From: Chloroflexota bacterium
GTDB taxonomy: Bacteria; Chloroflexota; UBA6077; CF-72
Length of the DNA stretch: 8,225 nt
NCBI GenBank assembly: GCA_019247135.1
Contig: JAFAPL010000207.1
Location: 1 to 8,225 of the forward strand
Direction of reading: 5' to 3'
A program made the position numbers and the translations under genes. Numbering within the stretch: the first letter of the stretch is position 1; every line of letters starts with the position of its first letter. Below the pieces are notes generated by a model. That model searched no databases. It was not told the origin of the DNA and worked only from the letters and a program-made list of their open reading frames with translations. Shown here piece by piece: positions 994-7,426 of this stretch.

Positions 994-2052
994 ATGTCAT
1001 CAGCGCCGTCGGAGTTACGGCGCAGTGGCCCGGACACGCGCGGCGTCACGGGCGCACATCGACGCGGGCCGCGAGCGGTGCATCGCGCCTTCGGTCTTTC
1101 CGACCAGGACGCGCTCGACATGTACTACGCGATGCTGGTCACCCGTCAGCTCAGCCAGCAGGCGCTGCGGCTCGCGTTCCAGGGCACCATCGACGTGTCG
1201 ATTCCGTCCGACGGGCACGAGGCCGCCCAGATCGCCAGCATGCGCGCGCTGCGGCCGACCGATCCCGTGTACCTCTTCTATCGCAGCGTGCCAGCCGCGT
1301 ATGCACGTGGGATGACGGCACGTGAAATCTGCCTGGGCTATTTCGGACGCGCCGACGACCCCTCCTCCGGTGGTAAGAACCTGGCTGGCCACTGGGCCAA
1401 ACGCGAGCTGTGCCTGATGAGCGTCTCGGGTTCGGTGGCCACACAAATCCCGCACGCGGTCGGCTCGGCGCTGGGCGCCAAGCTGCGCGGCGAAGACAGC
1501 GTCTCGGTCGCCTATTTCGGCGACGGCGGTTCGTCCAAAGCCGACTTCCACGAGGCGCTGAATTTTGCCGCGGTGCAGCAGCTGCCGGTGGTGCTGTTCT
1601 GCGAGAACAACGGGCTGGCGATCTCGGTGCCCTTCGATAAGCAGTCGCCCGTTGCGCGCGTGGCCGACCGAGCCGTTGGCTATCACGTGGTCGGCATCAG
1701 CGTCGATGGTGCGGACCCACTGCAGGTGTACCGGGTGATGCGCGAGGCGGTCGAGGCGGCGCGTGCCGGGAGTGGTCCAGCGCTCATCGAGGCACGCGTC
1801 ACGCGGCTGGGGCAGCACACGTCGCAGGTGGGCGACGAGCGCAGTCCACGCGAGGTGGCCGCGGCGCGCCGGGCGGACCCCATCCCGCGATTCGCGCGCT
1901 ATCTCAGGCATGTCGGACTGCTCGATGACTCGCGCGAGCACGAGCTGGAACAGCGCGCTGAGGCGGAAGTTGCCGACGCGGTTGAGTTCGCCCGACAAGC
2001 TCCGATGCCGCCCGTCGCGCGGGCGTTCCAGGACGTCTACGGCCCGGAGTAG
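994..2052 (+). CDS. 2-oxoacid dehydrogenase E1 component, alpha subunit (branched-chain type), without an adjacent beta subunit
   Basis: 352 residues, normal for an E1-alpha subunit. The family binds thiamine diphosphate and Mg2+ and, with E1-beta, decarboxylates 2-oxoacids and passes the acyl group to an E2 lipoyl domain. Seen: GHEAAQ (74-79), FYRS (95-98), the GHW...REL and TQIPHAVG block (132-157) typical of branched-chain E1-alpha, the ThDP motif GDG (176-178) with NN at 205-206, and the His loop RLGQHTSQ (271-278) with candidate catalytic His275. The first 34 residues lie before the conserved domain (starting near LSDQDAL). GTG 1078 is an alternative start, but the -10-like hexamer 6 nt upstream favours ATG 994. 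No E1-beta, E2 or E3 is adjacent: the next gene is convergent and their stop codons touch. The true substrate is unknown; a product of the neighbouring dioxygenase (an arylglyoxylate) is possible. Confidence 0.9.
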   Translation: MSSAPSELRRSGPDTRGVTGAHRRGPRAVHRAFGLSDQDALDMYYAMLVTRQLSQQALRLAFQGTIDVSIPSDGHEAAQIASMRALRPTDPVYLFYRSVPAAYARGMTAREICLGYFGRADDPSSGGKNLAGHWAKRELCLMSVSGSVATQIPHAVGSALGAKLRGEDSVSVAYFGDGGSSKADFHEALNFAAVQQLPVVLFCENNGLAISVPFDKQSPVARVADRAVGYHVVGISVDGADPLQVYRVMREAVEAARAGSGPALIEARVTRLGQHTSQVGDERSPREVAAARRADPIPRFARYLRHVGLLDDSREHELEQRAEAEVADAVEFARQAPMPPVARAFQDVYGPE

Positions 2053-3342
2053 TCAGCGAGGGCGTTTGTCGATGACGCGCACGGCTTTGCCTTCGCTGCG
2101 CGGCACGCCGCCGGGTTGGCACAATTGAATGTGCATCGTGAGACCGGTCGCCTCCCGCAGCGCATGTTGCAGACGATGCGCGAGGGTGTCCGAATTGTCT
2201 GACGCGGCGACGGGTTCGCACAGCACGGTCAGCTCGTCCATGGGCCCGGGCCGCTCGACCACGAGCTGGTAGTGCGGCGTGAGCTCTCCCACCTCCAGCA
2301 GAACGCGCTCCACTTCGGACGGGTACAGGTTGACGCCGCGGATGATGAGCATGTCGTCGTGACGACCGCGGACGCGGCTCATGCGCACCGTCGTCCGCCC
2401 ACACGGACATGGTTCATTCATGAGTGCGGCGATGTCGCCAGTTCGATACCGCAGCATCGGCAGGGCTTCTCTGGTCAGGGTGGTGAAGACGAGCTCACCC
2501 TCACCGCCAACCGGCACAGCCGCAGCGCTGGAAGGATCGATGACTTCGACCAGAAAATGATCTTCCTGGATGTGTGCACCGTTTCGGCCCTCGATGCACT
2601 CGGCCGCTACGCCGGGACCCACAATTTCAGAGAGGCCGTAGACGTTCAGCGCCACGATTCCGAGCTCACGCTCGATGGCGGCGCGCATGGCTTCGGTCCA
2701 CGGCTCGGCGCCGAATATGCCGACTCTTAACGCCAGGCGGTCGCGGCTGATGCCTGACTCGGCGACTGCCTGGGCGATATTGAGCGCATACGACGGCGTG
2801 CAGCACAGCACCTCGCCCTGCAGGTCCTCCAGGAGCAGCACCTGGCGTTGGGTCAGTCCACCCGAGATCGGAATGACCGTACAGCCCATGAGCTCGGCGC
2901 CCTGATGAAAGCCGAGACCGCCCGTGAACAGCCCGTACCCGTACGCGTTGTGCACAACCATGCCCTGCTTTACTCCCGCGCCCGCGAGCGTACGCGCCAC
3001 CACCTCTGACCAGACATCCAGGTCGGCTCGCGTATAGCCGACGACGGTTGGCTTGCCACGCGTGCCGCTCGAGGCGTGGACACGCACCACCTGCTCACGC
3101 GGAACGGCGAACAGGCCAAAGGGGTAGTGCTCGCGCAGGTCCGCCTTGGTCGTAAACGGCACGTCCTTCAGGTCCGCCAGCGACTGAACCTCTTCGGCGG
3201 CCTGGAGCCCCGCCCCGCGCAGCACGTCGCGGCGAGGACGCACGTGCTCGAGCTGGCGCTGGATGGTCGACCGCACGCGGTCGAGCTGCAGGGCTTCGAG
3301 GCGGTCGCGTGGCATGCTCTCGAGCTCGGGATTCCAGAGCAT
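2053..3342 (-). CDS. paaK: Phenylacetate-CoA ligase family protein (arylacetate-CoA ligase)
   Basis: 429 residues, the usual PaaK length. PaaK uses ATP to form an acyl-adenylate and then the CoA thioester of phenylacetate or related aryl acids in the cytosol. Seen in order: the N-terminal WNPELESM; the phosphate-binding loop HASSGTRGKPTV (89-100); YGLSE (235-239); the acidic EDHFLVEVIDP (260-270); YRTGDIA (299-305); a CPCGR element (312-316); hinge and C-terminal domain RGRHDDMLIIRGVNLYPSEVE (325-345); and EGKAVRVIDKR (417-427) carrying the likely adenylation lysine K419. ATG 3342 is supported by TATCGT exactly 6 nt upstream. It is divergent from the DpgC-like gene (38 bp), which would consume an arylacetyl-CoA, and its stop abuts that of E1-alpha. 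No phenylacetyl-CoA epoxidase (paaABCDE) genes are in view, so the classical paa route is not supported here. The exact substrate is not predictable. Confidence 0.93.
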   Translation of the reverse strand: MLWNPELESMPRDRLEALQLDRVRSTIQRQLEHVRPRRDVLRGAGLQAAEEVQSLADLKDVPFTTKADLREHYPFGLFAVPREQVVRVHASSGTRGKPTVVGYTRADLDVWSEVVARTLAGAGVKQGMVVHNAYGYGLFTGGLGFHQGAELMGCTVIPISGGLTQRQVLLLEDLQGEVLCCTPSYALNIAQAVAESGISRDRLALRVGIFGAEPWTEAMRAAIERELGIVALNVYGLSEIVGPGVAAECIEGRNGAHIQEDHFLVEVIDPSSAAAVPVGGEGELVFTTLTREALPMLRYRTGDIAALMNEPCPCGRTTVRMSRVRGRHDDMLIIRGVNLYPSEVERVLLEVGELTPHYQLVVERPGPMDELTVLCEPVAASDNSDTLAHRLQHALREATGLTMHIQLCQPGGVPRSEGKAVRVIDKRPR

Positions 3343-3348
3343 GCCGCA

Positions 3349-3354
3349 ACGATA
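3349..3354 (-). promoter_or_regulatory. Candidate leaderless -10 hexamer of paaK (TATCGT)
   Basis: On the minus strand TATCGT fits TANNNT and lies exactly 6 nt before the paaK ATG at 3342. No Shine-Dalgarno sequence is present. No TTGACA-like -35 is visible. A -35 region at normal spacing would fall at about 3372-3377, on top of the -10 of the divergent gene. Confidence 0.5.
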
Positions 3355-3368
3355 TCGCGCGGACGGCT

Positions 3369-3374
3369 TACAGT
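3369..3374 (+). promoter_or_regulatory. Candidate leaderless -10 hexamer of the dpgC-like gene (TACAGT)
   Basis: TACAGT (4 of 6 matches to TATAAT, fits TANNNT) lies exactly 6 nt before ATG 3381, predicting a transcript that starts at the initiation codon. There is no purine-rich ribosome-binding site. The -35 position at normal spacing (about 3346-3351) overlaps the -10 of paaK, so the two promoters share one RNA-polymerase footprint. Confidence 0.5.
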
Positions 3375-3380
3375 TTGAGC

Positions 3381-4769
3381 ATGGCGATCGCGTTCGAGCC
3401 GGGTGCGCTCAGCGGCGCTGGCTTGCCCGCGCACGAGCTGCGCGAATGGGCCGCATCGCAACCGCGCGATGTTGCTGATGCCGCGGCGAGTTCGCGATTT
3501 CTGTTGACTGGCGAACGACTACTCGGGCGGTTGCCGCCACGGCCCAAACGCTCTACAGCCGAGCAAGCCGCGGCCGAAGCGTTGTGGGCCGAGCTGCGAG
3601 CTGTTCGGCGGCGCTTTTTACGGGTTAGCGCTGGATCGTTGTACGCACGCTTGACCGATGACTTAAGCAAGTGCGTTCGTGTCGAAGAGCTGGTGTACGA
3701 CGCCGCGGCTGCCGTGCCCGGACTGGTGCCCACGCGTGAGCAGGTCAGGGCCGATCGCGAGCGTCTGCAGAAAGACAAGGAAGGCTTCGAGATCGACCAG
3801 GGCGTTTTTCTGGCCCAGGTCCTGAGCGATCCTGCCGCCGGCAGCCATCTGATCTACTCGATGCTTCGGCCGCGGCACGAAGCAGTCGAGCTGTTCGGGG
3901 AGTTCCAGCGATCTGGCCGCGTCGACATCGGCGATACGAGCGTCGAGCGGCGGGGGAGCGTCGGTTACGTCCTGCACGGCAGCCCGCGCTTCCTCAACGC
4001 CGAGGATGACGCGACCACAACGACGCTCGAAATCGGCGTCGACCTGGTGCTGCTCGACCCTGCAATTGAGGTCGGCGTGCTGCGCGGCAAGCCAGTGACA
4101 CACCCCAAGTACGCGGGCCGAAGGTTGTTCAGCTCCGGGATCAACCTGACGCACCTGTATCACGGACTGATCTCGTTCGTGGATTTCTTCATCAGCCGCG
4201 AACTCGGGCTCGTCAACAAGCTCTATCGCGGCCACAGCCTGGCCGAGTACGTGTCGCACGCGGTCGAAGAAACGTCCTCTGAGAAACCGTGGATTGCTGC
4301 CGTGGAGGGGTTCGCGATCGGCGGCGGATGTCAGATCCTGCTGACGATGGACTACGTGCTGGCCGAGCAGTCGAGTTTTTTCAGTCTGCCGGCTCGAAAG
4401 GAAGGGATCATCCCTGGCGTGTCGAACATGCGCCTTTGGCGCTTCGTCGGCGATCGCCTGGCGCGGCAAGCGATCCTGTTCGACCGCCAGTTCCCGGCCG
4501 ACTCAGCCGAGGGACGTCTCATCTGCGATCGGGTGGTGCCCGACGGGGAAATGGACGCTGCGCTTTCGGAGACGCTGGTGGCGCTGACGACCTCAGGCGT
4601 GGTCAGCGCGGCAGGCAACCGCAAGGCGATCCGCGTCGGCCAGGAACCGATCGACGTGTTTCGCCAGTACATGGCGGTGTACTGCCGCGAGCAAGCCCTG
4701 TGTCATTACAGTCCGCAGTTGATCCGTAACCTGGAGTTGAACTGGGACGCGCAGCGACGAAAACCGTAG
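3381..4769 (+). CDS. DpgC-like cofactor-independent arylacetyl-CoA dioxygenase (crotonase superfamily)
   Basis: 462 residues. DpgC of glycopeptide-antibiotic pathways uses O2 without metal or flavin to turn 3,5-dihydroxyphenylacetyl-CoA into 3,5-dihydroxyphenylglyoxylate and CoA. This protein has the same layout: a helical N-terminal domain (about 1-200, including the KDKEGFEIDQGVF segment, 131-143) and a C-terminal crotonase fold with HPKYAGRR (241-248), SSGINLTHL (251-259), RELGLVNK (273-280), EKPWIAAVEGFAIGGGCQ (301-318) and SLPARKEGIIPG. The DpgC residues I recall as important (Glu189, oxyanion Ile235 and Gly296, Arg254, Gln299) fall at a constant +19 offset on E208, I254, G315, R273 and Q318, all identical. 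ATG 3381 was chosen over an upstream ATG (3309), which would overlap paaK head-on and adds 24 residues that look unlike the family. No dpgA, dpgB or dpgD is visible. It is divergent from paaK, a plausible supplier of its substrate. The aryl group used is unknown. Confidence 0.88.
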   Translation: MAIAFEPGALSGAGLPAHELREWAASQPRDVADAAASSRFLLTGERLLGRLPPRPKRSTAEQAAAEALWAELRAVRRRFLRVSAGSLYARLTDDLSKCVRVEELVYDAAAAVPGLVPTREQVRADRERLQKDKEGFEIDQGVFLAQVLSDPAAGSHLIYSMLRPRHEAVELFGEFQRSGRVDIGDTSVERRGSVGYVLHGSPRFLNAEDDATTTTLEIGVDLVLLDPAIEVGVLRGKPVTHPKYAGRRLFSSGINLTHLYHGLISFVDFFISRELGLVNKLYRGHSLAEYVSHAVEETSSEKPWIAAVEGFAIGGGCQILLTMDYVLAEQSSFFSLPARKEGIIPGVSNMRLWRFVGDRLARQAILFDRQFPADSAEGRLICDRVVPDGEMDAALSETLVALTTSGVVSAAGNRKAIRVGQEPIDVFRQYMAVYCREQALCHYSPQLIRNLELNWDAQRRKP

Positions 4770-5054: not shown

Positions 5055-7022
5055 CTAGCTCAACTCGATCTCGTAGCGTTGGCCGGCCCGAACGGGAAAC
5101 CGATGCGCCGCGACCGAGCCCCGGCTCTCATCGTGAAGTCGGCGCGCGCTGGCGTCCAACACGCGGCACCGACGCGGCCAATCTCCGAAATCGAGCAGGG
5201 CGGTATCGCCTTCGTACCACAATGAGAACCGCTGACCACGATACGTGAGAGGCCCGATGCCGAGCCGACCGCCTTCGAGAAGACGGGACGGCAGGCCAGG
5301 ACAGAGCTCGAACACGTACGCGTCCGTCCGTCTGCTTTCTCGAAATCCGAGTAGATGGCGGATGACCAGGTTGGTCGTCGTCGCCCCCCAGCCGTAGGCG
5401 TCGTGACCGTCGAACGTCGACCAGTCCCGCGGCCAGAACTCGGGGGATGCGCCGGGCATGGGGCGACCCGGCTGGTCAGGTTCGCGGCGGGTGGTGACGC
5501 GATAGACACGGTCGACCAGTTCGGCCTGCAGCTCACGCATGCGGGCGTCGTGCCCGAGGGCTGCCGAGGATTCGACCAGTACGTACGTCCACGAAGGCCA
5601 CATGCTCCAGGGAGGTGTCGCGTGCCGCCAGACCTCTTCAGCATCGAGCGGCAATCCGAGCAACAGCGGTGTCAGGGAGAGCGCGGAGTAGCGCAGCGGA
5701 TCGACGCCCCAGTACGGCTGCGAGTCCCGCGGTTGCAATGCCCAATCTCGATACCGGCCTTCGCGCGCGTCATAGAGCTGGCGCGTTCTGTTCGTGTAGT
5801 CCAGGTCGATCTCGCGCCAGTGCTCGGCGGGCTCGGCAAGCTCGGTCGCAAAAAACGACAACACACGCGCGGCGTACGCGACCGTCGCCTGAAGCTCGAC
5901 AGGACGAATGCGTCCGCTGATGTCCGCGTCGCCGCTGCCTGTCGGGTCGAGCCTGGGGTTGCCGTCCTCACCGGCTTCCCACGTGCACTTGTAGACGATC
6001 CACCCGTCGGCATCGCGCCGATGTTCCAGCCACCACTCCAGATACGCGCACGCATATGGATACAGCTGACGCAGCCACTCGCGGTCCAGCGTGCGCAGGT
6101 ACATGAGCTCGAGATTCAGGAATGGCAGGCACCACGCGGGCGACGTGCCGCACACGCTGCCATCGACGGCGACCATGTTCGGCGAGCCGTCGAAGAAGAC
6201 GCAGGGCACATTGGGCCGCGGCGCGTCTCTGAACATGCTGAGGACGGCGCGCTGTGCGAGGTGTGGGTCGGCGTAGGCCAGCCGCAACATGTCGAGCGCG
6301 CCCTCGGCCAGAACCACTCGCGGCCAGCTGACCATCCAGGCCGACCAGACGTCGGTGAAGATGCCCGATGCCGGTTGGACGAGCATGCGCGTGGTCTCGA
6401 AATCGTGGAACATCCCCTCGCGCCAGCCGGCTGGCCAGTCGCCTTGCAACCCTGGACAGTTTGCGTAGAACGCGTCGTCCTCGGCCTTCAGCCGGGCGTG
6501 CGTCGCGTCCATTGCTGGTAGCACTCGTTGCGCCATGGTCTGTGCGTTGGCGCCGCGAGCGAGCACTGCCTGGGAGAAATCTGCTGTTGCGAGTGCGAAA
6601 TGCTGGTCCGACAGCACGCGGTCGAAGCTCACGATGCGTTCGTCGTCGACTGCCAGAACCGTTGCGTTCACGGTGCGAGCACACAGGGCGTCCTCGCCGT
6701 CCAGAAAGAACTGCGCCGACGCGCTGCCACCGGGCCAGGTCAGCTCGAACTCGAAGATCAGGCAGGAGTGGTGCGTACAACGGACGCGCACGCCGGCTAT
6801 ATCGAAGTCACGCCGGCTCTGGAGGAGGCGGCCGTCCAGCTCCAGCGCGAATGCGAGGCCCACGCGTCTGTGCGGCTGCCGCTGCGTCGGATAGACCCAC
6901 TCGATACCGAGGCGGTCGAGCATCGTTCGCAAGTTGCCGCCTTGCGTGTCGCGCCAGGAGCGGGCGCGGTGGCCAGGGTTCTTCAGGTAGCCGAAGGGCG
7001 TGAAGTCGGCATCGACACTCAC
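5055..7022 (-). CDS. Six-hairpin glycoside hydrolase (GH63/trehalase-like (alpha/alpha)6 fold), substrate unknown
   Basis: 655 residues from GTG 7022. The N-terminal part (about 1-150) looks like a beta-sandwich domain, followed by an (alpha/alpha)6-barrel. Barrel signs: SGIFTDVWSAW (219-229) with repeated helical hairpins; KCTWEAGEDGNPR (345-357), matching the GH63/mannosylglycerate-hydrolase WE-x-G-x-D-x2-PR motif and giving Asp353 as likely general acid; and PEFWPRDW (527-534) followed by GWGATTTNLV (544-553), giving Glu528 as likely base. In-frame sequence continues upstream to 7169, but the residues there are Arg-rich and out of character. GTG 7022 overlaps the lipoprotein TGA as GTGA, the usual translational-coupling arrangement. 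There is no signal peptide, so it is probably cytosolic, acting on an alpha-linked sugar or glycoside. The exact family and substrate cannot be decided by eye. Confidence 0.8.
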   Translation of the reverse strand: MSVDADFTPFGYLKNPGHRARSWRDTQGGNLRTMLDRLGIEWVYPTQRQPHRRVGLAFALELDGRLLQSRRDFDIAGVRVRCTHHSCLIFEFELTWPGGSASAQFFLDGEDALCARTVNATVLAVDDERIVSFDRVLSDQHFALATADFSQAVLARGANAQTMAQRVLPAMDATHARLKAEDDAFYANCPGLQGDWPAGWREGMFHDFETTRMLVQPASGIFTDVWSAWMVSWPRVVLAEGALDMLRLAYADPHLAQRAVLSMFRDAPRPNVPCVFFDGSPNMVAVDGSVCGTSPAWCLPFLNLELMYLRTLDREWLRQLYPYACAYLEWWLEHRRDADGWIVYKCTWEAGEDGNPRLDPTGSGDADISGRIRPVELQATVAYAARVLSFFATELAEPAEHWREIDLDYTNRTRQLYDAREGRYRDWALQPRDSQPYWGVDPLRYSALSLTPLLLGLPLDAEEVWRHATPPWSMWPSWTYVLVESSAALGHDARMRELQAELVDRVYRVTTRREPDQPGRPMPGASPEFWPRDWSTFDGHDAYGWGATTTNLVIRHLLGFRESRRTDAYVFELCPGLPSRLLEGGRLGIGPLTYRGQRFSLWYEGDTALLDFGDWPRRCRVLDASARRLHDESRGSVAAHRFPVRAGQRYEIELS

Positions 7023-7426
7023 TGGCTGCACAGAATGACGCGGCCGCGCGCGTCGGAGTGGTACTCGAGCTGCTGGCCGCCGCCGCTCACGACGATCAAA
7101 TACCCCGGCGTGACCACCTGAGCATACACATCGCCCTGGCGCGGACAGCCGAGGGATGCGTCGGGCCATTGCCGCGGCTCAACCCGATCGACGCTGATAT
7201 CCGTATCCGAGACGCTCAGCCGTTGCGCGGCATCGTGCGTGGCCTGGTTGACGGCCTGTTGTGCTTCTGGGCCGGGACTGGCACTAGGGCTCACGCCAGG
7301 CTTCGGACTTGCGACGCTGGCTGGCGCCGCCGCTGGGCTCGGGCCCGGGGTTGGCGGGACATTCGATGCTGCGCACGCGCTGCTCAGGCCCACCAGACAC
7401 AGGTACAGGTACAGCAACGCGCGCAT
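7019..7426 (-). CDS. Exported lipoprotein-like protein with a WPDASLGCP C-terminal domain
   Basis: 135 residues from ATG 7426. A hydrophobic leader (MRALLYLYLCLVGLSSAC, 1-18) ends in a relaxed lipobox (SSAC, Cys18); cleavage by signal peptidase I near ACA (17-19) is the alternative. It is followed by a Pro/Ala/Ser-rich linker (about 22-55) and a compact domain (64-135) with QWPDASLGCP (87-96), VVTPGYLIVVSGGG (104-117), LEYHSD (120-125) and a terminal Cys133 that could pair with Cys94. I know this domain only as a conserved hypothetical in small exported proteins, often from Chloroflexota and Cyanobacteria. An in-frame TTG at 7462 would extend the protein by 12 residues ahead of the leader, and it lies almost at the predicted transcription start, so it was rejected. 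It is the first gene of the minus-strand operon, and its stop overlaps the start of the glycosidase. Confidence 0.75.
   Translation of the reverse strand: MRALLYLYLCLVGLSSACAASNVPPTPGPSPAAAPASVASPKPGVSPSASPGPEAQQAVNQATHDAAQRLSVSDTDISVDRVEPRQWPDASLGCPRQGDVYAQVVTPGYLIVVSGGGQQLEYHSDARGRVILCSQ

Follow-up and report, generated by a model that had tools for sequence, protein, structure and literature searches.

A PaaK and DpgC-type gene pair suggests an aerobic alpha-oxidation of arylacetates in bacteria

Comparison with known systems

DpgC has been regarded as a peculiar enzyme of antibiotic biosynthesis, which converts an arylacetyl-CoA with O2 to the arylglyoxylate and CoA without metal or flavin. 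Here we describe a stretch of DNA of 8,225 nucleotides from a Chloroflexota bacterium (contig JAFAPL010000207.1 of assembly GCA_019247135.1), hereafter called the window, in which a gene for a DpgC-type protein is found together with genes for a PaaK-type arylacetate-CoA ligase and for the alpha subunit of a thiamine diphosphate (ThDP)-dependent 2-oxoacid dehydrogenase (E1-alpha). The DpgC of glycopeptide clusters (3,5-dihydroxyphenylacetyl-CoA 1,2-dioxygenase) occurs in the context of a type III polyketide synthase (PKS) and a non-ribosomal peptide synthetase (NRPS), whereas the DpgC-type protein is accompanied here by PaaK and E1 and elsewhere by an indolepyruvate:ferredoxin oxidoreductase (IOR) or by box genes. 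In the anaerobic alpha-oxidation by PadBCD/PadEFGHI, phenylacetate is converted via phenylglyoxylate to benzoyl-CoA. The intermediates proposed for our locus are the same, but the oxygenation is predicted to be O2-dependent and cofactor-free, and E1/E2 or IOR would act instead of the Pad enzymes. The aerobic Paa hybrid pathway is described as likewise opening with the activation to phenylacetyl-CoA (PMC4498308). It uses the PaaABCE epoxidase, whose place would be taken here by the DpgC-type enzyme. The L-phenylglycine operon pglA-E of pristinamycin biosynthesis also has pyruvate dehydrogenase (PDH)-like E1 alpha and beta proteins (PglB/C) and a phenylglyoxylate intermediate; PglB/C act ahead of phenylacetyl-CoA, the operon is biosynthetic, and no PaaK is named in the passages on it (PMC7089894). 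For PglA, that paper uses the name dioxygenase in its text and dehydrogenase in one of its tables (PMC7089894).

The PaaK-DpgC pair looks like the core of an O2-dependent breakdown of phenylacetate-like acids which, as far as sequence comparison can tell, replaces the ring-epoxidising route in some bacteria. Comparative evidence supports this core of activation and predicted DpgC-type oxygenation well. The locus as a whole would be an aerobic arylacetate alpha-oxidation module, with PaaK and DpgC as its steps, E1 as a feeder and the box pathway as its fate in Pseudomonadota. To this reading we assign a probability of roughly 0.55, and the interpretation given in a preliminary description of this DNA is partly supported.

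Genes of the window

The genes for E1-alpha, the PaaK-type ligase and the DpgC-type protein follow each other in this order and are flanked by PolX-type and MGH1-like glycoside hydrolase genes:

994..2052, + strand: E1-alpha of a ThDP-dependent 2-oxoacid dehydrogenase of the branched-chain 2-oxoacid dehydrogenase (BCKDH)/PDH type (PF00676, E=6e-70; GDG...NN motif)
2053..3342, - strand: PaaK-type arylacetate-CoA ligase (TIGR02155, 560 bits; 2y4o, E=1.8e-133)
3343..3380, no strand: divergent intergenic stretch of 38 bases between the starts of PaaK and DpgC, from the gene coordinates
3381..4769, + strand: predicted DpgC-type cofactor-free arylacetyl-CoA 1,2-dioxygenase (crotonase superfamily)
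3-974, - strand: PolX-type protein, flank on the E1-alpha side
5055-7169, - strand: MGH1-like glycoside hydrolase of 704 aa, beyond DpgC

The three enzyme families noted earlier for 994..4769 were confirmed by PF00676, by TIGR02155 and 2y4o, and by the DpgC fold. The PaaK score lies under the 646-bit threshold of TIGR02155, and the match to the solved PaaK 2y4o is nearly full length (residues 17-440). The start of the DpgC gene was set at 3381 because it fits the length of P0001, a 462-aa protein from a Chloroflexi metagenome-assembled genome (MAG) with 99% identity to the window protein. The latter shows 46% identity to DpgC of glycopeptide clusters (PDB 2np9, 4ylh), and the match covers the N-terminal helical part, where the next-best crotonases do not match. 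Against the DpgC equivalog NF042432 it reaches 428.8 bits, under the 530-bit threshold. E189, R254, Q299 and A319 of DpgC are all identical in the window protein. The mutants R254K, A319C and V425T of DpgC are named in PDB titles; position 425 is Leu in the window protein.

Linkage of PaaK and DpgC

A first locus set, the best 80 of 103 confirmed DpgC loci, was taken from GTDB species genomes. Three locus collections and the window together gave 94 DpgC members, with some loci present twice; these are 94 of 97 rows, as L015, L111 and L174 were dropped because their open frame was too short. For the DpgC tree five further rows were removed as presumed duplicates, in the case of L171 wrongly, since its contig differs from that of L054 and it is no copy.

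In 42 of the 94 members (window included), PaaK and DpgC are no more than 4.5 kb apart, and in one clade of the tree, most of it proteobacterial, 33 of the 45 members show this linkage. PaaK lies directly upstream of DpgC on the same strand in 24/81 loci. Among 33 PaaK-linked loci, no gene family other than PaaK and DpgC is shared by more than 6. This conserved tight pair backs the earlier claim that PaaK and DpgC probably act in consecutive steps. From its family and from the pairing, PaaK would convert arylacetate, CoA and ATP to arylacetyl-CoA. The DpgC-like enzyme, judging from its fold and active site, would then deprotonate the alpha carbon and add O2 without metal or flavin, giving arylglyoxylate and CoA. 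Other ligases apparently stand in for PaaK at some DpgC loci: a FadD-type ligase is encoded immediately 5' of DpgC in L108 and L109, and at six actinobacterial loci DpgC follows a fused IOR, with a FadD-type ligase downstream.

Several single neighbours were also observed. Genes of the FlK-type (fluoroacetyl-CoA) thioesterase family adjoin DpgC in L012:11380-11856 and L037:4989-5384, and the cluster of the former has members in 6 loci. A UbiD/VdcC-like decarboxylase gene directly 3' of DpgC (L005:3694-5199; 128 bits, far below the VdcC cut-off) may hint at hydroxyaryl products. In two alphaproteobacterial MAGs a SAICAR synthetase-like gene lies near DpgC (L005:1078-2064, found by clustering; L007:4295-4924, a Pfam match). 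In Amycolatopsis (L050), a pyridoxal phosphate (PLP) decarboxylase and an aldehyde dehydrogenase, both unspecific matches, occur near the IOR-DpgC-ligase genes. Single neighbours in L013 (514 aa), L021 (257 aa) and L049 (499 aa) and two in L028 gave no family match at the thresholds used.

Box pathway and PaaA in DpgC carriers

For BoxB, 27 genomes were chosen out of the 80 loci. BoxB was found above cut-off in 21 of them (Pseudomonadota 13/17, actinobacteria 7/7, Chloroflexota 1/3) and in pieces in a 22nd, G423. A PaaA/PaaC-family match above 92 bits was present in none of the 17 chosen Pseudomonadota. A second set comprised 200 genomes from the family of Acidisphaera sp. S103 (L024, G406), 11 of which carry DpgC; those carriers that are part of the DpgC tree are spread over at least four separate positions in it. 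With matches of E up to 0.001 counted, BoxB was detected in 10/11 DpgC carriers compared to 36/189 other genomes (Fisher p 1.7e-6), above cut-off in 45 of these 46. PaaA (TIGR02156) was above cut-off in 0/11 carriers and 57/189 others (p 0.036), and among BoxB carriers in 0/10 with DpgC and 29/36 without it (p 4.8e-6). Box genes are linked to PaaK-DpgC at two distinct loci in the 97 rows searched. In L168, on the same contig as L034, boxB (truncated at the contig end), paaK and dpgC are consecutive and share one strand, with a 4-base overlap between paaK and dpgC; in L023, boxC and boxB adjoin PaaK and DpgC.

In Pseudomonadota, co-occurrence with BoxB and the linked box genes suggest that the product fed into central metabolism is benzoyl-CoA. 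Arylglyoxylate would there most likely be converted to benzoyl-CoA and enter the box pathway, in place of PaaABCE. The breakdown of aryl acids without ring epoxidation that had been suggested at the outset thus appears to hold for Pseudomonadota, where the carriers examined have no PaaA or strong PaaA/PaaC-family match and mostly possess BoxB.

Several observations weigh against the proposed module or restrict its range. The genome counts are uncorrected for kinship, and related genomes make the Fisher p-values optimistic. One of the 11 carriers of the family set, G501, is without BoxB, and in G540 BoxB is a fragment, truncated by a contig end, that scores below the cut-off. All seven actinobacterial carriers tested have strong PaaA/PaaC-family (PF05138) matches of 317-330 bits in addition to BoxB; DpgC is therefore not a Paa replacement there. 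In Pseudomonadota, the markers used near PaaK-DpgC and the box genes revealed no enzyme leading from arylglyoxylate to benzoyl-CoA. The loci of this phylum in the 81-locus set contain no E1 marker, in a search that did not include other ThDP enzymes, and the surroundings of the box clusters in 20 genomes gave no E1, E2, IOR, PaaK or DpgC marker above 70 bits. L011 and L046 contain weak matches to IOR, with 24-25% identity, at distances from DpgC of 4.7 and 9.2 kb. Among the Chloroflexota, 7/11 carriers have two divergent genes, PaaA/PaaC-like and scoring under the PaaA cut-off, on the same contig, and BoxB in 1/3 genomes tested directly is a weak box link; the claims of Paa replacement and box fate are therefore limited to Pseudomonadota. 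Finally, E189, R254 and Q299, which we take to be near the hydroxylated ring in DpgC, are conserved, and this could indicate hydroxylated substrates rather than phenylacetate.

E1-alpha in related Chloroflexota

DpgC was identified in 11/400 Chloroflexota genomes. In the nearest relatives, G001, G002 and G003, an ortholog of the window E1-alpha (65-82%) adjoins DpgC. At the loci L001, L002 and L003 its identity is 82, 80 and 66%, respectively. L001 and L002 contain E1-alpha, located by tblastn with marker proteins, PaaK and DpgC; in L003, E1-alpha and DpgC lie on one strand. Linkage in related genomes, proposed as a check in the preliminary description, is thus conserved for E1-alpha and DpgC in the nearest Chloroflexota. 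Homologs of the glycoside hydrolase (5055-7169) occur at the matching place in L001 and L002.

Two more Chloroflexota genomes carry a window-type E1-alpha (82% and 54%) and have no DpgC match. The G151 locus is otherwise syntenic, with PolX, E1-alpha and PaaK followed by a gene of the beta-lactamase superfamily and one that matches the glycoside hydrolase gene in size; DpgC is missing there and has no match in the G151 genome. PaaA (TIGR02156) is above cut-off in 1/13 Chloroflexota genomes examined, namely in G151, whose copy is truncated at a contig end, and in 0/11 Chloroflexota DpgC carriers. This looks like a swap of PaaA in G151 for DpgC in the carriers, a reading weakened by the divergent PaaA/PaaC-like pairs and by BoxB in only one of three genomes. 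The PF05138 matches in Chloroflexota were ruled out as ordinary PaaA, since only G151 passes the TIGR02156 cut-off. Beside the divergent PaaA/PaaC-like pair, an FeS-assembly (PaaD-like) gene is found in G001 and G093, and a PaaB gene as well in G093. Such pairs are located at L184:6419-8614 (with PaaD-like and PaaB genes) and L182:3765-6098 (with a PaaD-like gene).

Partners and place of E1

The window contains no E1-beta and no E2. G001 and G002 have an E1-beta/E2 operon without an adjoining E1-alpha; in both genomes a single protein joins E1-beta to an E2 catalytic domain (PF02779, PF02780, PF00198), and a lipoyl-E2 follows. The assignment of this operon as partner of the window-type E1-alpha was withdrawn, because G001 holds a second E1-alpha (L186) with 74% identity to the E1-alpha next to the E1-beta fusion in G222. 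In L187:5452-8489 and L188:6394-9037 the fused E2 catalytic domain retains HRALDG and the motif of the following lipoyl-E2 is degenerate (DRRAFDD in G001), compared by HxxxDG, which we take to be the E2 motif. The E2 functions thus seem to be divided between two proteins.

In G222, PaaK and E1-alpha precede the E1-beta/E2 fusion. In G399 the fusion occurs with an amidase, E1-alpha (in two frames), a lipoyl-E2, PaaK and an aminotransferase, and one contig of G379 carries an amidase, E1-alpha, a lipoyl-domain protein, PaaK, an aminotransferase and DpgC. Seven genomes have the closest E1-beta (62% identity or more, a threshold chosen after inspecting the list), and six of them belong to the 11 DpgC carriers in 400 (p=5.8e-10). 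The E1-alpha of these sets is of another type (38-41% to that of the window), so the dedicated set gives the window E1-alpha no demonstrated partner. In the loop GQHTSQV of the window-type E1-alpha, His is replaced by Asn in the module-type E1-alpha (L208:7663-8535, L104:1583-2542). Similar E1/E2 sets adjoin PaaK-like genes in G081 and G394, two genomes that gave no DpgC match.

The preliminary description had placed E1 third, to decarboxylate the arylglyoxylate formed by PaaK and DpgC; E1/E2 would in this way give aroyl-CoA by oxidative decarboxylation. Such a linear order would be an aerobic counterpart of the anaerobic PadBCD/PadEFGHI route and would close the gap before benzoyl-CoA, a step that the BoxB results call for. 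It is favoured by E1-alpha beside DpgC in the window, L001, L002 and L003, by the dedicated sets of G222 and G399 and that of G379 on a contig with DpgC, by the DpgC carriers among the genomes with the closest E1-beta, and by the IOR-like matches in L011 and L046. However, an E1 acting solely on the DpgC product would be idle in G151, which has E1-alpha, PaaK and PaaA but no DpgC, and the sets of G081 and G394 and the different E1-alpha of the dedicated set also speak against it. The precedents go the opposite way. PglB/C were suggested to turn phenylpyruvate into phenylacetyl-CoA (PMC7089894), and a 2-oxoacid:ferredoxin oxidoreductase of Clostridium scatologenes is described as making p-hydroxyphenylacetyl-CoA, the known IORs covered there using arylpyruvates (PMC13285125). 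E1 as the third step is therefore plausible but less well supported, and we consider the linear order rather unlikely.

The combinations observed are E1 with PaaK and DpgC, E1 with DpgC, E1 with PaaK, PaaK with DpgC, and IOR with DpgC and a ligase. All of them would be accounted for if arylacetyl-CoA is the product of E1, of IOR and of the ligases alike, whereas the order PaaK, DpgC, E1 explains every combination except E1 with PaaK without DpgC. Given these combinations and the precedents, a feeder role of E1 would have somewhat better odds than a third step. In the feeder reading, E1-alpha and an E1-beta/E2 encoded elsewhere most likely turn arylpyruvate into arylacetyl-CoA by oxidative decarboxylation. 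A wider proposal is tentative: a widespread aerobic phenylacetate route from PaaK over the DpgC-type enzyme and a ThDP-dependent 2-oxoacid dehydrogenase (E1/E2 or fused IOR) to benzoyl-CoA and the box pathway would replace PaaABCE, and the glycopeptide DpgC would have been recruited from it.

Other functions of the DpgC-type protein

The protein could instead be a hydratase/isomerase or thioesterase in ordinary beta-oxidation without oxygenase function. It belongs to the crotonase superfamily, the database names of the listed homologs are often thioesterase DpgC or enoyl-CoA hydratase and in others dioxygenase, and genes for FlK-type thioesterases and enoyl-CoA hydratases lie near some members. 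However, the positions presumably equivalent to the two hydratase glutamates are Gln and Ala in 94/94 DpgC rows. Together with the match to the N-terminal part of the DpgC fold, this argues for an active site of the oxygenase type, as supposed in the preliminary description, and makes a hydratase or thioesterase very improbable.

At thirteen alignment positions the residues of the PaaK-linked rows and those of 12 biosynthetic rows do not overlap; L071, L075 and L078 were excluded from the biosynthetic set though a type III PKS gene is present there. Among these positions are the neighbours of Q299 (A298 in the reference, C here) and A319 (A320 in the reference, R here). Clusters of type III PKS, DpgB-like crotonase, flavin mononucleotide (FMN)-dehydrogenase/aminotransferase and NRPS genes, each identified from one representative, were found in 0/42 PaaK-linked rows, as far as rows entered the clustering, and no type III PKS or NRPS gene is among the window genes. 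Biosynthetic DpgCs sit within the same tree as the PaaK-linked ones and an aminotransferase is encoded nearby in L025 and L104, but with these clusters absent, the 13 positions distinct and BoxB co-occurring, a module that provides arylglyoxylate for arylglycine, as in glycopeptides or pristinamycin, is the least probable explanation.

Meaning of the PaaK-DpgC pair

A literature search in openly licensed papers gave no title or abstract showing a catabolic DpgC. The kinds of enzyme are known, and their joint use in a catabolic route standing in for PaaABCE appears to be new. If DpgC relatives are catabolic in Pseudomonadota, Chloroflexota and Actinomycetota, cofactor-free oxygenation would be a common attack on phenylacetate-like acids. 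Genomes without paaABCE would then have been misjudged as unable to use such acids, and the origin of the antibiotic DpgC would become testable.
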